From NCBI GenBank assembly GCA_023251155.1, contig JAHEZH010000001.1, forward strand, positions 120,694-178,347: a stretch of DNA of 57,654 nucleotides, in the 5' to 3' direction. A model generated the notes under the pieces. That model was not told the DNA's origin and searched no databases. It was given only the letters and a program-made list of their open reading frames with translations. This stretch comes from Flammeovirgaceae bacterium. GTDB lineage: Bacteria > Bacteroidota > Bacteroidia > Cytophagales > Cyclobacteriaceae. Position 1 is the first letter of the stretch. Each line of letters starts with the position of its first letter. Positions 35,684 through 51,034 of the stretch are shown in pieces. The position numbers were made by a program, and so were the translations under genes.

Positions 35684-35749
35684 AGCTCCAGGAGAAAGGT
35701 TAAAAGTTAATCGTAGATCGGTACCACGATTAACTTTTAACCATTAACT
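35684..35749. repeat. Gene-free inverted heptad repeat between convergent genes
   Basis: A perfect 17-nt inverted repeat (35698-35714 and 35726-35742) surrounds an 11-nt loop that contains the palindrome GGTACC. Each arm is built of 7-nt units. Reading toward the loop the right arm gives AGTTAAT, GGTTAAA, AGTTAAT, CGT and the left arm gives GGAGAAA, GGTTAAA, AGTTAAT, CGT. It sits between the thioredoxin-like gene and the S10 peptidase and might act as a bidirectional terminator. Its heptad build is the same as that flanking the two four-helix-bundle genes. Confidence 0.75.
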
Positions 35750-35753
35750 ATTC

Positions 35754-43711: not shown

Positions 43712-44161
43712 ATGAAAAGAGAAGATACCATTGATTATAATATTAAGGCGGCCTGGCACAGTATCGCCCGCATGTACAATCAGCAAGCCATGAAGTATGG
43801 TGGTACGATGTCGATCGGTTTTGCTTTGCTCAATATTAATACCGAAGAAGGAACAGCCGCTACCAAAATTGCTCCGCTGATGGGGTTAGAGGCAAGAAGC
43901 CTGACGCGCTTGCTCAAATCGATGGAAGAGAAAGGTCTCATTTACAGAGAGACGGATAAAAATGACAAGCGCTCGGTACGCATCATGCTCACCGCCGAGG
44001 GGAAGAAGAACAAAGAGAAAGCGCGTGAAACCGTATTGCTTTTCAATGAAGCATCACGTGAGCAGATCCCACAGGAAAAACTCGAAGTGTTTTTTGATGT
44101 GCTTCAGAAGATCTGCCGCATCATCGAAAAAAATACCATATATGAAAAAACAACCAGTTAA
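43712..44161 (+). CDS. MarR-family transcriptional regulator
   Basis: This 149-aa winged-helix regulator has the DNA-binding unit APLMGLEARSLTRLLKSMEE (near residues 68-87) and the wing DKNDKRSVRIMLTAEG (near residues 97-112). MarR proteins usually repress neighbouring genes and release DNA on ligand binding. The position directly upstream of fadN-fadA-fadE-like genes suggests that acyl-CoA or a related compound is the ligand. The ATG at 43712 is chosen because longer frames run through the palindromic operator. A 65-nt gap separates it from the first fad gene. Confidence 0.9.
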   Translation: MKREDTIDYNIKAAWHSIARMYNQQAMKYGGTMSIGFALLNINTEEGTAATKIAPLMGLEARSLTRLLKSMEEKGLIYRETDKNDKRSVRIMLTAEGKKNKEKARETVLLFNEASREQIPQEKLEVFFDVLQKICRIIEKNTIYEKTTS

Positions 44162-44226
44162 CAGAATAGTCACACCCGTGAAATAAGGTTAACCGATATT
44201 AGAAACTTAAAACGAATCATAGTTAA

Positions 44227-46626
44227 ATGAAACGATCTATTCGCAAAGTTGCCGTTCTGGGCTCAGGTGTCATGGGCTCTGCCATTGCCTGTCATTTCGC
44301 CAACATTGGCTGTGAAGTCATGCTGCTGGACATTACTCCCCAGGAACTCACGGAGGAGGAAAAAGCAAAAGGCTTGACATTGGAAAGTAAGGCCGTACGT
44401 AACCGTATCGTACAGAGTTCTTTTGACAGAACTGTAAAATCGAATCCAGCTCCACTCATGAGCAAGAAGTTTGCTTCGCGCATTACGCTTGGCAACTTTG
44501 ATGATGACATGGCGAAGATCAAAAACTTCGACTGGATCATTGAGGTGGTCGTTGAAAATCTGGACATCAAAAAGAAGGTGTATGAGCAGGTGGAAAAATT
44601 CAGAACACCCGGAACGCTGATAACCTCCAACACGTCAGGTATCCCTATCCACCTGATGGCCGAAGGGCGAAGCGAAGATTTCAAAAAGCATTTTGCCGGA
44701 ACGCACTTCTTTAACCCTCCCCGTTATCTTAAGTTGTTCGAAGTCATTCCAACTGCGGCTACCGATCCGGAAATCACACAGTTCTTGTTGCACTATGGTG
44801 ATCTTTATTTAGGAAAGACTTCAGTATTGTGTAAAGACACACCTGCCTTCATTGGTAATCGTGTTGGTGTCTGGGGGTTACTCAAGGTCATTGACTCGAT
44901 GCAGAAATTCGATCTCAACGTAGATGAGATTGACAAGCTTACTGGTCCGGTGATCGGAAGACCAAAATCGGCTACATTCAGAACTTCTGATCTGGTAGGA
45001 CTGGATACATTGGTGAAAGTAGCCAATAACCTGTACGCCGGTTTGCCCAACGATGAAGGCCGCGAGATGTTCAAGTTACCTGAAGTCGTTGCCAAGCTTG
45101 ATGCCAATAAATGGCTGGGCGATAAAACCGGACAAGGATTTTATAAGAAAAGCAAGGATGCCAAAGGTCAGACGGAAATACTAACACTTGATCTGAAGAC
45201 ATTAGAATATAAGCCTAAGGCAAAAGCCAGGTTTGCTACGCTGGAAACGACAAAGACAATTGACAACCTGAAAGATCGCTTTAAGGTTTTGCTGGCGGGT
45301 AAGGACAAGGCAGGTGATTTCTATCGCGATGCCTTTTATGGCTTGTTCAAGTATTCTTCGAATCGTATTCCGGAAATCAGCGATGAGCTTTTCCGTATTG
45401 ACGATGCCGTAACTGCTGGCTTCGGCTGGGAGCTCGGTCCATTTGAAACATGGGATGCAATTGGGGTTGAAAAATCATTAACGGCGATGGAAGCTGCCGG
45501 TTATAAACCTGCACAGTGGGTATATGATATGGTGGCTGCCGGAAACAAAACATTCTATAAAGTAGAAGCAGGTCAGCGCAAGTATTACGATATTCCATCG
45601 AAGTCCTACAAAACGATTCCTGGTAAAGAAGCCTTCATCATTCTTGAAAACCTGAGCGACAAGATTGTGTGGAAGAATGCGGAAAGCAAAGTTACCGACA
45701 TTGGTGATGGTGTGATCAACTTCTCCTGGCACAGCAAAAGCTATACGCTTGGAAGTTCAGTAATTGAAGGATTGAATAAAGCCATTGATCTGGCAGAAAA
45801 AAATCATCGTGGTCTGGTCGTTGGTCATCAAGGACCTGATTTTTCGCTTGGCGCGAATTTAGGGTTGGTGTTTATGTATGCCATCGAACAGGATTACGAT
45901 GAGCTGGATTTCATGGTCAGGGCTTTTCAAAATTCCACGATGCGAATTCGTTACTCGTCCATACCGGTAGTTGTTGCTCCGCAGGGAAGAACATTAGGTG
46001 GTGGTTGTGAAATGACGTTGCACTCTGATCTTGCCCAGGCTGCAGCAGAAACGTATATCGGTTTGGTTGAGGTGGGCGTAGGGCTAATCCCTGGCGGAGG
46101 TGGAACGAAAGAATTTACCAAGCGCGTAAGTGACCGCATGCAGGAAGGGGATATCGAACTGAACGCACTGCAAAACGCCTTCATGAACATTGCGACAGCA
46201 AAGGTTGGCTTATCCGCAGAAGAAGCGCGTGAAATGGGAATACTTCGTGAACACGATCGCATCTCGATCAACAAAGACCGCCAGATACTGGATGCGAAAG
46301 CAGCGGTAATCGAGCTGGCGGATGCAGGCTATACCATGCCGACTCATGCCAAAAACATCAAAGTACAAGGACGTTCAGGTCTTGCTTTATTTGCAGCAGG
46401 TGTAAACGGAATGAAAGTAGGCCGCTTCATCAGCGAGCACGATGAGAAAATTGCCATGAAGATTGCCAACGTGATGTGCGGAGGAGACTTGTCTTCACCC
46501 ACAGAAGTAACCGAACAGTATCTATTGGATCTGGAACGTGAAGCGTTTGTTTCCTTATGTGGTGAAAAGAAGACACTGGAAAGAATTCAATCAATATTAA
46601 CTGGTGGAAAGCCGTTGAGAAATTAA
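44227..46626 (+). CDS. fadN: 3-hydroxyacyl-CoA dehydrogenase / enoyl-CoA hydratase (FadN-like)
   Basis: This 799-aa bifunctional beta-oxidation enzyme hydrates trans-2-enoyl-CoA and oxidises the 3-hydroxyacyl-CoA with NAD. The NAD-binding motif is at the N-terminus (VAVLGSGVMGSAIACHFANI, residues 8-27), followed by the dehydrogenase C-domains with HFFNPPRYLKL and NRVGVWG. The hydratase/crotonase domain is C-terminal (about residues 500-780; FSLGANLG, APQGRTLGGGCEMTLHSD, GLIPGGGGTKEF). This domain order is that of Bacillus FadN (YusL, 789 aa), opposite to E. coli FadB. Together with the thiolase and acyl-CoA dehydrogenase downstream it matches the fadN-fadA-fadE gene set. Confidence 0.95.
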   Translation: MKRSIRKVAVLGSGVMGSAIACHFANIGCEVMLLDITPQELTEEEKAKGLTLESKAVRNRIVQSSFDRTVKSNPAPLMSKKFASRITLGNFDDDMAKIKNFDWIIEVVVENLDIKKKVYEQVEKFRTPGTLITSNTSGIPIHLMAEGRSEDFKKHFAGTHFFNPPRYLKLFEVIPTAATDPEITQFLLHYGDLYLGKTSVLCKDTPAFIGNRVGVWGLLKVIDSMQKFDLNVDEIDKLTGPVIGRPKSATFRTSDLVGLDTLVKVANNLYAGLPNDEGREMFKLPEVVAKLDANKWLGDKTGQGFYKKSKDAKGQTEILTLDLKTLEYKPKAKARFATLETTKTIDNLKDRFKVLLAGKDKAGDFYRDAFYGLFKYSSNRIPEISDELFRIDDAVTAGFGWELGPFETWDAIGVEKSLTAMEAAGYKPAQWVYDMVAAGNKTFYKVEAGQRKYYDIPSKSYKTIPGKEAFIILENLSDKIVWKNAESKVTDIGDGVINFSWHSKSYTLGSSVIEGLNKAIDLAEKNHRGLVVGHQGPDFSLGANLGLVFMYAIEQDYDELDFMVRAFQNSTMRIRYSSIPVVVAPQGRTLGGGCEMTLHSDLAQAAAETYIGLVEVGVGLIPGGGGTKEFTKRVSDRMQEGDIELNALQNAFMNIATAKVGLSAEEAREMGILREHDRISINKDRQILDAKAAVIELADAGYTMPTHAKNIKVQGRSGLALFAAGVNGMKVGRFISEHDEKIAMKIANVMCGGDLSSPTEVTEQYLLDLEREAFVSLCGEKKTLERIQSILTGGKPLRN

Positions 46627-46631
46627 ATGTA

Positions 46632-47106
46632 GGCAGCTGGCAAAAAGCAGTCGGCAGTCAAAAAACAGTATATGTCAAAGTCGAAAGGATATCGTGATCT
46701 TATTGTTTATCAAAAAGCTTTTGCTTTAGCGATGAATATATTCCGTATAACTAAGACATTTCCTTCAGAGGAGAAGTATGCTTTGATTGACCAGATCAGG
46801 CGCTCATCACGCGCAATTTGCTCTTGCCTAGCAGAGGCCTACAGGAAAAGTTATCAGGGATATTTTGTGAATAAAATTTCTGATGCTGACGGAGAAAATA
46901 GTGAGACAATCGTTTGGCCTGAATTTGCTTTAGCCAGTGATTACATCTCTCAGGAGAAGTTTAATGAACAGGAAGACGCTGAAGAAGTCGGACGTATGCT
47001 GAACTCAATGATTGAACACCCGGAAAAATTTTTACCAAAAGAAAAACTAAAAGAACTATAAAAAATTAATTGTTAGCAGACTACCTACTGTCGTCTGCCT
47101 ACTGCC
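46632..47106. repeat. IVS-like element 1: four-helix-bundle gene between inverted heptad repeats (GGCAGTN family)
   Basis: The left arm (46632-46659) reads as four heptads: GGCAGCT, GGCAAAA, AGCAGTC, GGCAGTC. The right arm (47079-47106), read on the minus strand, gives GGCAGTA, GGCAGAC, GACAGTA, GGTAGTC. The arms are complementary at 20 of 28 positions and enclose the fhb gene, so the transcript could fold with the gene in a loop. The element fills the gap between the fadN and fadA genes. Confidence 0.75.
46672..47061 (+). CDS. Four-helix-bundle protein (23S rRNA intervening-sequence-protein family), copy 1
   Basis: This 129-aa member of the S23/IVP-like family is recognised by YRDLIVYQKAFALAMNIFRI, EEKYALIDQIRRSSRAICSC and LAEAYRKS. 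Close relatives are encoded inside intervening sequences of 23S rRNA, and Avd of diversity-generating retroelements has the same fold. The biochemical role is not established, though nucleic-acid binding is suspected from the basic surface. Unusually, it sits between two fatty-acid oxidation genes and is bracketed by inverted heptad repeats. It starts 45 nt after fadN and ends 65 nt before fadA. Copy 2 differs strongly in sequence, so this is not a recent duplication. Confidence 0.9.
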   Translation: MSKSKGYRDLIVYQKAFALAMNIFRITKTFPSEEKYALIDQIRRSSRAICSCLAEAYRKSYQGYFVNKISDADGENSETIVWPEFALASDYISQEKFNEQEDAEEVGRMLNSMIEHPEKFLPKEKLKEL

Positions 47107-47126
47107 AACTTTAAAAACAAAATATT

Positions 47127-48299
47127 ATGGACGCATACATCGTAGCCGGTTTAAGAACAGGAGTAGGAAAAGCAAAGAAAGGCGGCTTCCGTTTTACGAG
47201 ACCAGATGATCTCGCAGCCGAAGTGATCAAAAATCTGGTGAAGTCGGTACCAGGTTTGGAAAACAAAATGGTAGACGATTTAATCGTGGGTAATGCCGTG
47301 CCCGAAGCAGAACAAGGCATGCAGATGGGCCGCATCATTGCATTAATGGCATTGGGCATCGATGTGCCGGGTATGATTGTGAATCGCTATTGCGGATCGG
47401 GAGTTGAAACGATCGCGATCGCAACACAACGTATCCAGGCAGGTATGGCCGATGTGATTATTGCGGGTGGAACCGAATCCATGTCACTGGTACCCACTAT
47501 GGGTTGGAAGACCGCATTGAATTATGAAATCGCCAAAAACCATCCGACCTATTATACCAGCATGGGCCTGACTGCGGAAGAAGTTTCGAAGCAGTTCAAG
47601 ATCACACGCGAAGAACAGGATCAGTTTTCGTACGAAAGTCACATGAAAGCAGCAGCAGCATGGAAGGCGGGTAAGTTCAAAGACGAGATTGTTCCTATTA
47701 CGGTGAAGGAAACCTACCTCGATGAGAACATGAAAAAGAAGACGCGCGAGTTTGTGGTGGCTACCGATGAAGGGATTCGTACCGATACCACAGTGGAAGG
47801 TCTTGCTAAACTGAAACCGGTATTTGCAGCGGGTGGATCAGTAACAGCAGGAAATTCATCACAAACATCGGATGGAGCCGCTTTCGTGGTGGTGATGTCG
47901 GAGCGGATGGTGAAACAATTGAATGTGAAACCCATTGCACGGATGGTGAGCTATGCGGTGGCAGGCGTTGATCCGCGGATCATGGGCATTGGCCCTGTAG
48001 CGGCTATCCCCAAAGCACTGAAGCTGGCCGATCTGAAATTGAACGATATCGATTTATTTGAACTGAACGAAGCATTTGCTGCCCAATCACTGGCCGTTGT
48101 GAAAGAATTGGGAATAGACAAGACCAAACTAAATGTAAACGGAGGAGCGATTGCCGTAGGTCATCCGCTCGGTTCTTCCGGAGCCCGTTTGTCGGTACAA
48201 CTCTTCAACGAACTGAAACGCCAGAATAAGAAGTACGGAATGGTCACCGCTTGTGTTGGTGGTGGACAGGGAGTGGCGGGGATTTACGAACTGCTTTAA
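47127..48299 (+). CDS. fadA: Acetyl-CoA C-acyltransferase (3-ketoacyl-CoA thiolase)
   Basis: This 390-aa thiolase releases acetyl-CoA in the last beta-oxidation step. The nucleophilic Cys is in [10 protein letters not shown] (near residue 89), the catalytic His in [14 protein letters not shown] (near residue 347) and the second Cys in TACVGGGQG (near residue 378). The length matches Bacillus FadA (391 aa). It follows fadN in the same order as the Bacillus fadNAE operon but is separated from it by the four-helix-bundle element. Confidence 0.96.
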
Positions 48300-48306
48300 A
48301 AAGATT

Positions 48307-48718
48307 TGAGTAATGAGAATTGAGAAAACAATAAATTAATAGTATGCACAATTTAAAGGAGCTTAAAATATGGCTTAAAGCCATTGATCTTGCAACGGAT
48401 GTGTATCGATTGACAGCCAGTTTTCCGAAAGAGGAAAGATATGGTTTAACTTCTCAAATCAGAAGATCAGCCGTTTCCATACCTTCTAACATTGCAGAGG
48501 GAGCGGGAAGAAATTCAAATAAGGAATTCAATCACTTCTTAAGTATTTCAAATGGTTCATCATATGAACTTCAAACTCAACTCATTATTTCAAAAAATCT
48601 TGAATTAGTAGATGCTAACGTTGATTCTGTTCTTGAACAACTGGACCAGATTCAAAAGATGAATTACTCACTTCAGAATAAATTAAGACAACACTAAAAT
48701 CTCAGATCACAATACTCA
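48307..48718. repeat. IVS-like element 2: four-helix-bundle gene between inverted heptad repeats (TGAGNAN family)
   Basis: The left arm (48307-48327) is three heptads: TGAGTAA, TGAGAAT, TGAGAAA. The right arm (48698-48718), read on the minus strand, is TGAGTAT, TGTGATC, TGAGATT. They match at 15 of 21 positions and enclose the second fhb gene, filling the gap between fadA and fadE. The heptad sequence differs from element 1 but the architecture is the same. Confidence 0.75.
48344..48697 (+). CDS. Four-helix-bundle protein (23S rRNA intervening-sequence-protein family), copy 2
   Basis: This 117-aa protein carries the classical IVP family signature: LKIWLKAIDLATDVYRLTAS, then YGLTSQIRRSAVSIPSNIAEG (residues 32-52; core QIRRSAVSIPSNIAEG) and NHFLSISNGSSYELQTQL. 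It has the same fold as copy 1 but low identity. It starts 45 nt after fadA and ends 27 nt before the acyl-CoA dehydrogenase gene. Function is unknown. The protein may act on the structured RNA formed by its own flanking repeats, which is inference. Confidence 0.92.
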   Translation: MHNLKELKIWLKAIDLATDVYRLTASFPKEERYGLTSQIRRSAVSIPSNIAEGAGRNSNKEFNHFLSISNGSSYELQTQLIISKNLELVDANVDSVLEQLDQIQKMNYSLQNKLRQH

Positions 48719-48724
48719 TATCTT

Positions 48725-50521
48725 ATGACTACGATAACGAAGCAAACAATCAAGGGCGGTGAATTTTTAATTAAAGAAACACGGGCTCAGGACATCTTCA
48801 TTCCTGAAGAATTCAACGAAGAGCAAAAGATGATCGAGCAGCAGTGCAAAGACTTTCTTGCCAAAGAGGTAAGCCCGCGGCTGGATGAAATCGACTCGAT
48901 GAAAGATCCTAAGCTCATGCCTTCCATTATGGACAAGGCGGGTGAGCTTGGGTTGTTGGGCACATCTGTTCCTCAGGAACTGGGTGGTTTCGGAATGGAC
49001 TTTAATACGACCATGCTGGTGGCTGAAGTAATTGGTGGAGGTCACTCCGTTGCCGTGGCAATCTCTGCACATACCGGTATTGGCACGTTGCCAATTCTTT
49101 ATTATGGTAATGAGGAGCAAAAGAAGAAATACATTCCCAAGCTGGCCACGGGTGAGTGGAAGGCAGCTTATTGCTTAACAGAACCGGATTCCGGCTCGGA
49201 TGCAAACAGCGGAAAAACAAAAGCAGCACTGACTCCTGATGGAAAGCACTACCTGATCAATGGTCAGAAGATGTGGATTACCAATGGTGGCTTTGCCGAT
49301 ATCTATGTGGTGTTTGCCAAAATTGACAATGATAAAAACCTGACGGGATTCATCGTGGAGAAATCGTTTGGTGGTATCACCATGAATGAAGAAGAAAAGA
49401 AGATGGGGATCAAAGGATCATCTACCCGCCAGATTTTCTTTAACGACTGCAAGGTGCCGGTTGAAAATATGCTGAGCGAACGGGAGAATGGTTTCAAAAT
49501 CGCGGTGAATATTCTGAACATTGGTCGTATTAAATTGGGTATTGCTGCAGTGGGCGGATCAAAAGCTACGCTGAGCAAAGCAGTAAAGTATTCGAATGAA
49601 CGTAAGCAGTTTGGCGTTTCTATCTCTTCCTTCGGAGCGATCAAACACAAGATTGCTGAATCAGTGACGAAAATATTTGCATCCGAGTCGGCTCATTATC
49701 GTGCATCACAAAATATTGATGATGCTTACCATGCATTGGTATCCAGTGGCCTTGATTCCGCGAAAGCAAGGCTGAAAGCGCTGGAAGATTTTGCGATTGA
49801 GTGCGCTATTCTGAAAGTACATGGCTCAGAAGTGTTGGACTATGTAACCGATGAAGGTGTACAGATCTATGGTGGTATGGGCTTCTCTGCCGAAGGTCCG
49901 ATGGATCGTGCCTATCGTGATGCCCGTATCAACCGAATCTTTGAAGGAACCAACGAGATCAACCGTCTCCTCACTATTGATATGCTGATGAAGCGTGCCA
50001 TGAAAGGAAGCATCGACCTGATGACTCCTGCTATGGCTGTGCAGAAAGAGCTGGTTTCTATTCCTGATTTTGGTGCGGAAGAAGACACTGCTATTTTCGC
50101 GAAAGAGAAGAAGGCTATTCTTAACCTGAAAAAAGTGGGATTGATGGCGGCAGGTGCTGCGGTACAAAAGTTCATGATGAAACTCTCGGAAGAACAGGAA
50201 GTATTGATGAACCTGGCGGATATATTGATTGAAGCGTATGTGGCCGAATCCGTTATTTTGAGAGTAGAAAAGCTGATTGCATTGAAAGGTGAAAAAGCAG
50301 CTGAAATTCAGAAAGAGATGGCATTAATCTATTTGCATGAAGCGATAGAGAAAGGGGCATCGGCAGCGAAGCAGGCCGTATATGCTTTTGCAGAAGGAGA
50401 TGAATTGAGATTAATGTTGTTGGGTATTAAACGCTTTACTAAGATTGATCCATACAACCTGAAAGAAGCAAGACGTAAAGTAGCTAACTATGTGATTGAA
50501 AAAGGAGAGTATCCTTTTTAG
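48725..50521 (+). CDS. fadE: Acyl-CoA dehydrogenase (FadE-like, with C-terminal extension)
   Basis: This 598-aa FAD enzyme oxidises acyl-CoA to trans-2-enoyl-CoA. Signature motifs are AAYCLTEPDSGSDA and KMWITNGGFADIYVVFAKI (FAD/substrate contacts), the loop YSNERKQFGVSI, and QIYGGMGFSAEGPMDRAYRD with the catalytic Glu region IFEGTNEINRLL. The extra C-terminal 170 residues are helical as in very-long-chain dehydrogenases and match Bacillus FadE (594 aa). It ends the operon and is followed by a strong terminator. Confidence 0.95.
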   Translation: MTTITKQTIKGGEFLIKETRAQDIFIPEEFNEEQKMIEQQCKDFLAKEVSPRLDEIDSMKDPKLMPSIMDKAGELGLLGTSVPQELGGFGMDFNTTMLVAEVIGGGHSVAVAISAHTGIGTLPILYYGNEEQKKKYIPKLATGEWKAAYCLTEPDSGSDANSGKTKAALTPDGKHYLINGQKMWITNGGFADIYVVFAKIDNDKNLTGFIVEKSFGGITMNEEEKKMGIKGSSTRQIFFNDCKVPVENMLSERENGFKIAVNILNIGRIKLGIAAVGGSKATLSKAVKYSNERKQFGVSISSFGAIKHKIAESVTKIFASESAHYRASQNIDDAYHALVSSGLDSAKARLKALEDFAIECAILKVHGSEVLDYVTDEGVQIYGGMGFSAEGPMDRAYRDARINRIFEGTNEINRLLTIDMLMKRAMKGSIDLMTPAMAVQKELVSIPDFGAEEDTAIFAKEKKAILNLKKVGLMAAGAAVQKFMMKLSEEQEVLMNLADILIEAYVAESVILRVEKLIALKGEKAAEIQKEMALIYLHEAIEKGASAAKQAVYAFAEGDELRLMLLGIKRFTKIDPYNLKEARRKVANYVIEKGEYPF

Positions 50522-50544
50522 GAAGTGAGGTAAAATTAATCGAA

Positions 50545-50579
50545 GGCCGAATCCTGTTAAACGGGGTTCGGTCTTTTTT
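50545..50579 (+). terminator. Intrinsic terminator of the fad operon
   Basis: The 10-nt arm GGCCGAATCC (50545-50554) pairs with GGGTTCGGTC (50564-50573), with two G-U pairs and a 9-nt loop. TTTTTT (50574-50579) follows. Confidence 0.85.
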
Positions 50580-50609
50580 ATATTTAAATGTGAACTACTT
50601 TTTTGCTGA

Positions 50610-50992
50610 TCATCTCTGCTTTTCTTGTTGCCTGTTCAATTGCAATGATCCGTATCTGGGCTTCCTGATGTGGCTTTTTTCGTGAAGAGTTCTCTATAGC
50701 AAAAGCGGGAAGAGAAATTGAATGATCAAGTGGTGTTCGCTTACGTTTGCATTGACTCCGAACATTATCCTTACTTGAACGCGCTGAAGAAATACCAGCT
50801 TGGAGGCATTCATTATTTCTTGAAGAAGCACAAAGCGATCAGGTAAGAAGGCACTATAGCCTGAATGGAATTCCTCATTATCTGTTTCTGGATAGGAATG
50901 GAAACGTTGCCGGAGAAGGATATCAGATCAAGCCCAGCGAAGATGCGACCTATGATAAAATTAAATCCGTTTCAGGGTCAAATATTGAATAA
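50610..50992 (+). pseudogene. Decayed thioredoxin-like (TlpA-type) gene
   Basis: No intact ORF exists here, but three frames can be joined into a TlpA-like protein. Nt 50654-50722 read IWAS, then a TGA stop where Trp is expected, then CGFFREEFSIAKAGREIE. The active site is CGFF instead of CxxC. After a one-base shift, nt 50721-50820 read NDQVVFAYVCIDSEHYPYLN and KYQLGGIHYFL. After another shift, nt 50821-50992 read EEAQSDQVRRHYSLNGIPHY, then LFLDRNGNVAGEGYQIKPSE and a TAA stop. A weak signal-like stretch (FLVAC) precedes the domain. The nonsense codon, two frameshifts and lost cysteines show that it is dead. Nt 50581-50640 show nothing else. Confidence 0.75.
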
Positions 50993-51034
50993 CCGTCACC
51001 TAACTTCGCGGCCTGTAAAAACAGAATAACCTAC

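Follow-up and report, generated by a model that had tools for sequence, protein, structure and literature searches.

Four-helix-bundle protein genes between inverted AG-anchored heptad arrays in a fad operon of a Flammeovirgaceae bacterium: candidate relatives of rRNA intervening sequences

Introduction

A stretch of 57,654 nt from a Flammeovirgaceae bacterium (assembly GCA_023251155.1, contig JAHEZH010000001.1, positions 120,694 to 178,347; hereafter the window) carries a fadN-fadA-fadE operon of beta-oxidation, and each of its two gaps holds one gene for a four-helix-bundle (fhb) protein, fhb1 or fhb2, between two inverted arrays of degenerate heptanucleotides (heptads). Among the closest described systems are the intervening sequences (IVS) of 23S rRNA. 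For the Coxiella IVS, tandem GACAGAT heptamers are reported a short way upstream of the S23p open reading frame (ORF), together with a terminal stem of 28 bp and a first repeat that holds a site for RNase III (PMC4990558), and the same source cites IVS with an S23p ORF in Leptospira and others. An earlier note on this DNA had proposed a kinship to rRNA IVS, and the shared protein family together with the Coxiella heptamers and stem upholds it. Alike are the S23p family name, the ORF inside terminal inverted repeats, present in both window elements, and the heptameric repeats, which are known for the Coxiella IVS and are not shown to define the class; GACAGAT also fits a reading that starts at AG (AGATGAC). 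Unlike the IVS, which are placed in helix 9, 25 or 45 of 23S rRNA, both window elements lie between fad genes of a protein-coding operon, their arms are degenerate without stem covariation, and the heptad varies by protein clade.

Other heptanucleotide repeats share the period of 7 and a largely intergenic location, namely the cyanobacterial short tandemly repeated repetitive (STRR) sequences, GGGAATC of Xanthomonas and TAACTGA of Beggiatoaceae. Heptamers have been reported for Xanthomonas and Nostoc, with 70 inverted pairs in X. campestris (PMC4692102), which is also the species of the fhb structure 2gsc. The proteins S1, Csp or CsrA were proposed as candidate readers of TAACTGA arrays (PMC4679880), and the 7-bp STRR hairpins of cyanobacteria are stated to be without known function (PMC2670836). 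The portions of these three published accounts that were available name no fhb protein as a reader (PMC4692102, PMC4679880, PMC2670836), and the sole link between fhb/S23 proteins and heptamers found by searches of the open-licence PMC literature was the Coxiella IVS paper.

Results

Two fhb genes in the fad operon

By profile score, fhb1 and fhb2 reached 102.9 and 135.7 bits with PF05635 (cut-off 33.8) and 90.8 and 132.1 bits with TIGR02436 (cut-off 24), in agreement with the earlier description of one fhb gene per gap. The gaps measured 500 and 425 nt, and the fhb ORF was the sole within-gap ORF of at least 80 aa in each, leaving no transposase. Independent repeat finding yielded arms of 27 nt with 70% complementarity in the first gap and of 25 nt with 80% complementarity in the second. 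A joint two-arm heptad fit scored 39 in the first gap (weaker arm 18) and 32 in the second (weaker arm 16), and neither score was reached by any of 3000 dinucleotide shuffles. Only period 7 fitted: periods 5, 6, 8, 9 and 10 scored at most 21 in the first gap and at most 22 in the second. Inverted arrays at both genes were thus recovered as the earlier note had described them, with its count of three to four units refined to four to five in AG register, some anchors being degenerate by eye.

The heptads were GGCAGTN around fhb1 and TGAGNNN around fhb2, and exchanging the 3' arms between the two genes lowered the weaker-arm score to 4. The two proteins were 37% identical across 71 residues, which rules out a recent local duplication and agrees with the earlier note on this point. 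A strict lag-7 scan of the window gave no match, its threshold being too severe for degenerate arms. An Rfam search of 44000-51000 returned no rRNA family and no known structured RNA, only a snoRNA match below threshold (E 0.48) that was attributed to chance. Placement in 23S rRNA was rejected for the wider sample as well, where a motif scan of the loci up to L333 found rRNA motifs only in one stretch of a single genome (L174, genome G096).

Inverted heptads at fhb genes of relatives and of other groups

Among 148 sampled genomes of the same family, fhb was found in 128 and FadA in 139. From 141 FadA matches, 130 were fetched and 11 left out; 38 of the 260 resulting gaps were dropped for an unresolved edge, and 222 were kept. 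An fhb gene was present in 73 of these gaps, co-directional with the operon in all 73. Identity at a lag of 7 nt was 0.48 in the 5' flanks (z 33) and 0.46 in the 3' flanks (z 23) of these genes and recurred at lags 14 and 21, and the arms of one element matched each other (12.25) better than the arms of other elements (7.02). The inverted fit exceeded the direct fit in 64 of the 66 fad-gap genes with usable flanks, with one tie; the flanks of the other 7 were too short.

A strict inverted-heptad test was set at a total score of at least 30 with a weaker arm of at least 10. After removal of loci truncated at a contig end and of identical proteins, 64 fhb genes from 71 loci remained in the family set with control genes. 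Of these, 23 of the 42 non-fad genes and 15 of the 22 fad genes passed, compared to 0/257 control genes, all from the single genome G096, and 0/192 shuffles; the excess over control genes on which the earlier note had staked its proposal was present. Among fhb genes of named genomes 59 of 86 passed, as did 21 of 26 of viral contigs (1/336 shuffles); a hold-out set across the phylum, assembled once the criteria had been fixed, gave 42 of 68 (0/340 shuffles). Weaker-arm means for the 86 named-genome genes were 15.9 inverted, 10.4 direct and 7.7 shuffled. Of 296 sampled genomes of the phylum, 220 encoded a protein that scored above the PF05635 cut-off.

Single contigs of metagenome-assembled genomes titled Ignavibacteriae, Deltaproteobacteria, Chloroflexi and Fibrobacter (L238, L293, L294, L299) passed, misbinning being possible, and those titled Opitutae, Alphaproteobacteria and Nomurabacteria (L281, L287, L298) failed. 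Plasmid fhb matches were mostly cyanobacterial; among 18 plasmid regions of our choice from the search matches, 8 passed (7/17 cyanobacterial plus Bernardetia) versus 2/90 shuffles. On plasmids of Pseudanabaena (L465) and Anabaena (L467), fhb with heptad arrays lies between cas6 and cas4; L467 passes the inverted test, and L465 fails and has long direct arrays. A figure legend names a '23S rRNA IVP' beside CRISPR adaptation modules (PMC10910872), and the cas6-cas4 fhb may be the source of that association. In the viral contigs (L304-L331), many fhb elements had GC-rich heptads (AGTCTGT, AGGCTGT, CGGCTTT) and regular arms of about 31 nt.

Five AG anchors and the five-chain relatives

The strict test was passed by 150 of 213 pooled elements, and 131 of these 150 shared an AG phase, with the unit A G W N N N N and its G (position 2) the most constant letter (0.90). 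The longest exact in-phase run of AG peaked at five, in 38/131 5' arms and 51/131 3' arms, and six was found in 15 and 6. Counted across the pooled and hold-out sets, a run of four extended to five in 66/90, 61/83, 19/27 and 21/27, and a run of five extended to six in 28/66, 10/61, 7/19 and 7/21. The commonest arm length was 31 nt (40 of 300 pooled arms), and the best five-anchor window had all its anchors in 65/124 arms on the 5' side and in 60/124 on the 3' side, 7 of the 131 elements having been left out because they lacked 30-nt windows. The hold-out set demonstrated the same pattern: AG was found in 41/42 elements, other dinucleotides were rarer (GA 21, GT 29, AA 16, TA 33, TT 27 of 42), the run peaked at five (12 and 14 of 41), and arms were mostly 30-32 nt (29/84).

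An AlphaFold2 monomer model of fhb2 (pLDDT 94.8) matched 2gsc with a TM score of 0.92 (E 1.5e-8) and 2rld with E 3.5e-4 by Foldseek, and fhb1 matched PDB 2rld (E 8.8e-10). The PDB entries 2gsc and 2rld contain five chains each, and the 2gsc protein is called an assembly of five four-helix bundles in the title of a cited paper (PMC10053308). The window proteins, analysed by model and homology, probably assemble as a five-membered ring, and we infer that five anchors would serve five subunits. The fhb2 model also resembled Avd of diversity-generating retroelements (DGRs) (4dwl, TM 0.78, weak E 0.055) and, with weak E-values, chains of DGR ribonucleoproteins (8ub entries). Although Avd shares the predicted fold (TM near 0.8, with Foldseek E-values no better than 0.055), the window proteins scored 30.4 and 22.2 bits against an NF033474 cut-off of 80, and their immediate neighbours are fad genes.

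Complementary arms without unit-by-unit covariation

The earlier note had read the arms as target or processing structures, comparable to the stem of an rRNA IVS. In such an mRNA-type IVS, the arms would pair in the transcript, RNase III would cut the stem and separate the fad messages, and the protein would be a passenger or helper. Predicted RNA folds do show pairing between the arms at both window genes (z -1.4 and -2.9), the Coxiella IVS offers a precedent with heptamers, a 28-bp stem and a cut at the first repeat (PMC4990558), and every fad-gap fhb runs with its operon. Three tests spoke against a conserved RNA stem. Across 78 elements that keep four or more of the five anchors on each side, the in-register identity of linkers was 0.629 compared to 0.636 with units permuted (0.690 and 0.691 with G-U allowed); mismatches were wobble-compatible in 94 cases and incompatible transitions in 131, giving no wobble bias; and anchor losses were not paired (1 versus 1.4 expected), nor did 19 of the 21 solo hairpins described below, all pooled, demonstrate register (0.644 versus 0.649).

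Because the arms do not covary unit by unit, a maintained stem is unsupported, and so is a reading of the arms as a conserved paired structure, whereas the earlier reading of the arms as a target of something is supported. With linkers as alike out of register as in it, the two arms resemble separate inverted copies of one site, and a degenerate array present twice in inverse orientation would by itself yield the complementarity read from the sequences. A hairpin in the window RNA, as folded in silico, may still pair in any heptad register. An mRNA-type IVS also leaves the AG anchors, the limit of five and the association of heptad with protein unexplained, and we regard it as unlikely.

Heptad type follows the protein clade

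Heptad similarity tracked protein identity (rho 0.51, 0/500 permutations), also in species with FadA less than 78% identical (rho 0.46). The closest relatives of fhb1 carried GGCAGT (L365, L366, L369, L371, L373), and more distant members of its clade, clade 1, carried AATCAGT (L380, L390) or AATCGGT (L382), with L381, L387 and L393 departing from this. A clade-1 fhb, defined by a cut of E <=2.2e-19 that was chosen after the table was seen, was present in 8/12 genomes with GGCAGT arrays versus 24/136 others (p 0.0006). GGCAGT arrays were also seen in several family genomes with no fhb in the 1.5 kb retrieved on each flank (L335, L344, L351, L357 and others), many of them one-sided. Among residues, residue 2 led by mutual information with the heptad (Z 13.7) and gave p 0.002 in 86 independent pairs; such residue-base associations in aligned sequences are taken as a lead only.

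Heptad hairpins without a gene, or solo hairpins, were sought in the 67 of 149 fhb-less fad gaps that measured 55-300 nt and were found in 21, compared to 0/67 shuffled gaps and 4/109 ordinary gaps of genome G096. In 12 pairs, the heptad of the solo hairpin matched that of the fhb gene in the operon's other gap (0.826 versus 0.677 for permuted partners, p 0.0001). Where one operon held two fhb genes (12 genomes), heptad likeness was 0.476 versus 0.511 permuted (p 0.20); the difference within an operon is no greater than permuted, and orthogonality of the two is therefore not claimed. In a 400-kb scan of G096, 10 clusters of solo hairpins were found versus 1 in the shuffled sequence, several of the 10 being merely AT-rich.

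A further rival reading takes the heptads as simple repeats born by slippage that gather by chance near fhb genes, without recognition. An excess of heptameric repeats has been reported for many bacterial genomes (PMC4692102), and some fhb arrays are long and near perfect (L437, L131). Slippage by itself is disfavoured, and very improbable in our estimate, by the empty set of 257 G096 control genes, the inverted polarity in 64 of 66 fad-gap elements, the AG anchor with its cut-off at five and the protein-clade association that holds across distant species. In L437, L131, L033, L423 and L436, the arrays were expanded to about ten or more heptads, which suggests slippage changing copy number over a five-unit core.

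Occupied and empty gaps, and other fhb sites

Gap lengths in the fad operons fell into many short gaps (<60 nt) and an fhb-filled class of about 410-730 nt; 7 gaps of at least 300 nt were called as lacking fhb by us, one of which (L062) resembles a degraded copy by eye. Relatives with empty gaps, which the earlier note had looked to for the element ends, exist: in G074, whose FadA is 89% identical to that of the window, the gaps are 12 and 33 nt. Presence and absence between relatives with defined ends, as for DNA transposons and miniature inverted-repeat transposable elements (MITEs), was thereby found at the fad gaps. Short inverted ends and gene-less copies, the solo hairpins, likewise recall MITE and repetitive extragenic palindromic (REP) elements; unlike these, the fhb gap, which has no transposase, ends in tandem heptads that vary between elements. 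Three sampled congeners (L035, L040, L043) had a first gap of 94-98 nt without fhb, two of these gaps passing the solo-hairpin test, and fhb in the second gap, of TGAG type in L035 as in the window and of AAGAC type in L040 and L043. A second recurrent fhb site, at no fewer than eight loci (L004, L006, L009, L012, L013, L022, L027, L028), lies upstream of one gene, read as dihydrolipoyl dehydrogenase from L009; GTAC-type heptads appeared in 8/8 fits, and three loci (L009, L012, L013) passed the strict test.

The dN/dS of fhb was mostly 0.03-0.14 where dS was unsaturated, with one pair at 0.25 and many pairs saturated; by this measure fhb proteins are under purifying selection. In-frame stops were present in some copies. 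At fad sites, fhb identity tracked FadA identity (rho 0.61-0.69), so many fad-gap copies look old and vertical. The low dN/dS and the agreement with FadA identity would also suit a domesticated regulator, in which fhb binds its own 5' leader and the solo sites and tunes fad translation or decay, the 3' array being the antisense arm of a switch. The solo sites match the resident fhb, the arrays in fad gaps often adjoin stop and start codons, and the fold resembles, at weak E-values, the DGR ribonucleoprotein chains (8ub), all of which such a regulator would accommodate. It fits poorly with the patchy occurrence among congeners and the differing element types at one site, with fhb genes beside other host genes, and with AG arrays that are about equally good on both strands. 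We judge it rather unlikely.

Coordinates and further observations

The features of the operon are collected in Table 1. The best NCBIfam match of the first gene was the FadB-type NF052272 (E 4.6e-178), yet it lay under the curated cut-off, and the name fadN is that of the earlier note.

Table 1. Features of the fad operon and its two fhb elements in window coordinates
Feature	Position	Strand	Basis
fadN-like 3-hydroxyacyl-CoA dehydrogenase/enoyl-CoA hydratase, host operon gene 1	44227..46626	+	NCBIfam best match
Element 1 5' heptad array, AGTNGGC type, degenerate: TGTAGGC AGCTGGC AAAAAGC AGTCGGC AG	46628..46659	+	heptad fit
fhb1, 129 aa, PF05635 four-helix-bundle protein, clade 1	46672..47061	+	
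Element 1 3' heptad array, inverted; five minus-strand AG anchors: AGTTGGC AGTAGGC AGACGAC AGTAGGT AG	47076..47110	-	repeat finding and heptad fit
fadA acetyl-CoA C-acyltransferase (thiolase), host operon gene 2	47127..48299	+	TIGR01930, 460.9 bits, cut-off 240.55
Element 2 5' heptad array, TGAGNNN type: AGATTTG AGTAATG AGAATTG AGAAAAC	48302..48329	+	heptad fit
fhb2, 117 aa, PF05635 four-helix-bundle protein	48344..48697	+	
Element 2 3' heptad array, inverted; overlaps fhb2 stop codon, end adjoins fadE start	48694..48723	-	repeat finding and heptad fit
fadE acyl-CoA dehydrogenase, host operon gene 3	48725..50521	+	NF058590 equivalog, 786.4 bits, cut-off 600

A third fhb gene of the same genome (locus L003, contig C251) had TTGGGGA/TTGGGAC units on its flanks by eye; the automatic fit gave one good arm only (25 and 6), and one neighbouring ORF lay on the opposite strand. 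These units resemble published repeats of Nostoc, GGGGA(C/T)T (PMC4692102). The window also holds a solo inverted heptad hairpin at 35698-35752 (GTTAAAA GTTAATC / GATTAAC TTTTAAC CATTAAC), between convergent ORFs and without fhb, whose heptad is unlike those of all three fhb elements seen in the genome. In G096 (L166:2401-7800), AATGTCG-type and GGAATTTG-type heptad arrays stand as a composite, about 5 kb apart.

Discussion

We consider it fairly probable that each gap holds a selfish element related to the IVS, with a pentameric protein that recognises the five heptads at the ends of its own element. Each would be a minimal relative of the 23S rRNA IVS in which a single fhb gene is enclosed by inverted arrays of roughly five AG-anchored heptads each; it would reside in messenger operons, where the gap would supply transcription without a promoter of its own. 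In the fhb ring, each subunit would read one AG and part of the 5-nt linker, and one array would wrap one ring; the linker letters would set specificity, and fhb clades would differ in heptad for that reason. The bound ends might then be used for maintenance or movement of the element.

Rings that read evenly spaced short motifs have a precedent in the trp RNA-binding attenuation protein (TRAP), an 11-subunit ring that reads (G/U)AG triplets spaced 2-3 nt apart in RNA. One motif per subunit would be the shared principle, as proposed here for fhb, and TRAP differs in its unrelated fold, its 11 subunits, its triplets with 2-3 nt between them and its RNA target. As the AG array of the 3' end, on the opposite strand, is about as good as that of the 5' end, the ends would probably be recognised as DNA or as a register-free RNA hairpin, and perhaps as RNA alone; a step of 7 nt does not match the turn of B-DNA, and such DNA would therefore probably be single-stranded. 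The 7-nt step, the resemblance to Avd and the location in operons speak for single strands, RNA or DNA.

Several observations weigh against a selfish element with a five-heptad reader. The strict test was failed by 63 of 213 pooled and 26 of 68 hold-out elements; the direct orientation also passed in 31 of 86, one strong arm with a weak second one sufficing; in the 42 non-fad copies the inverted arms were only slightly above the direct ones (13.3 versus 11.0); and 19 of the 150 passing elements lacked the AG phase. Within clade 1, only 12 of 29 elements examined passed strictly, three of the 12 without the CAGT pattern in their heptads, and 4 of the 12 genomes with GGCAGT arrays had no clade-1 fhb at the chosen cut. 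The associations of F62 with position 3 and N3 with position 4 (p about 4e-5) barely passed the Bonferroni limit of 8.6e-5. The count of five chains comes from the content of PDB entries and one paper title, both window arms pair in predicted folds, many fhb copies at fad sites look old and vertically inherited, and no movement was observed among the sampled elements.

The proposal may extend to a broad family, an extension that we hold tentatively as a possibility. In it, one pentameric protein would be combined with two five-heptad arrays, and its subunits would read AG plus linker letters typical of the clade. Such proteins would supply the partner so far lacking for the unexplained heptanucleotide repeats of cyanobacteria, Xanthomonas and Bacteroidota, for the S23 ORFs of rRNA IVS and for the CRISPR-side IVP gene. 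If true, the family would hold a compact, programmable-looking recognition code, naturally diversified for nucleic-acid binding and learnable from sequence, and it would account for many intergenic heptad arrays. So far, rRNA IVS, heptanucleotide repeats in cyanobacteria and Xanthomonas, and the IVP gene beside CRISPR have each posed a puzzle of their own; five AG heptads for each five-subunit ring, with matched specificity, would unite them and predict, genome by genome, which protein reads which repeat.

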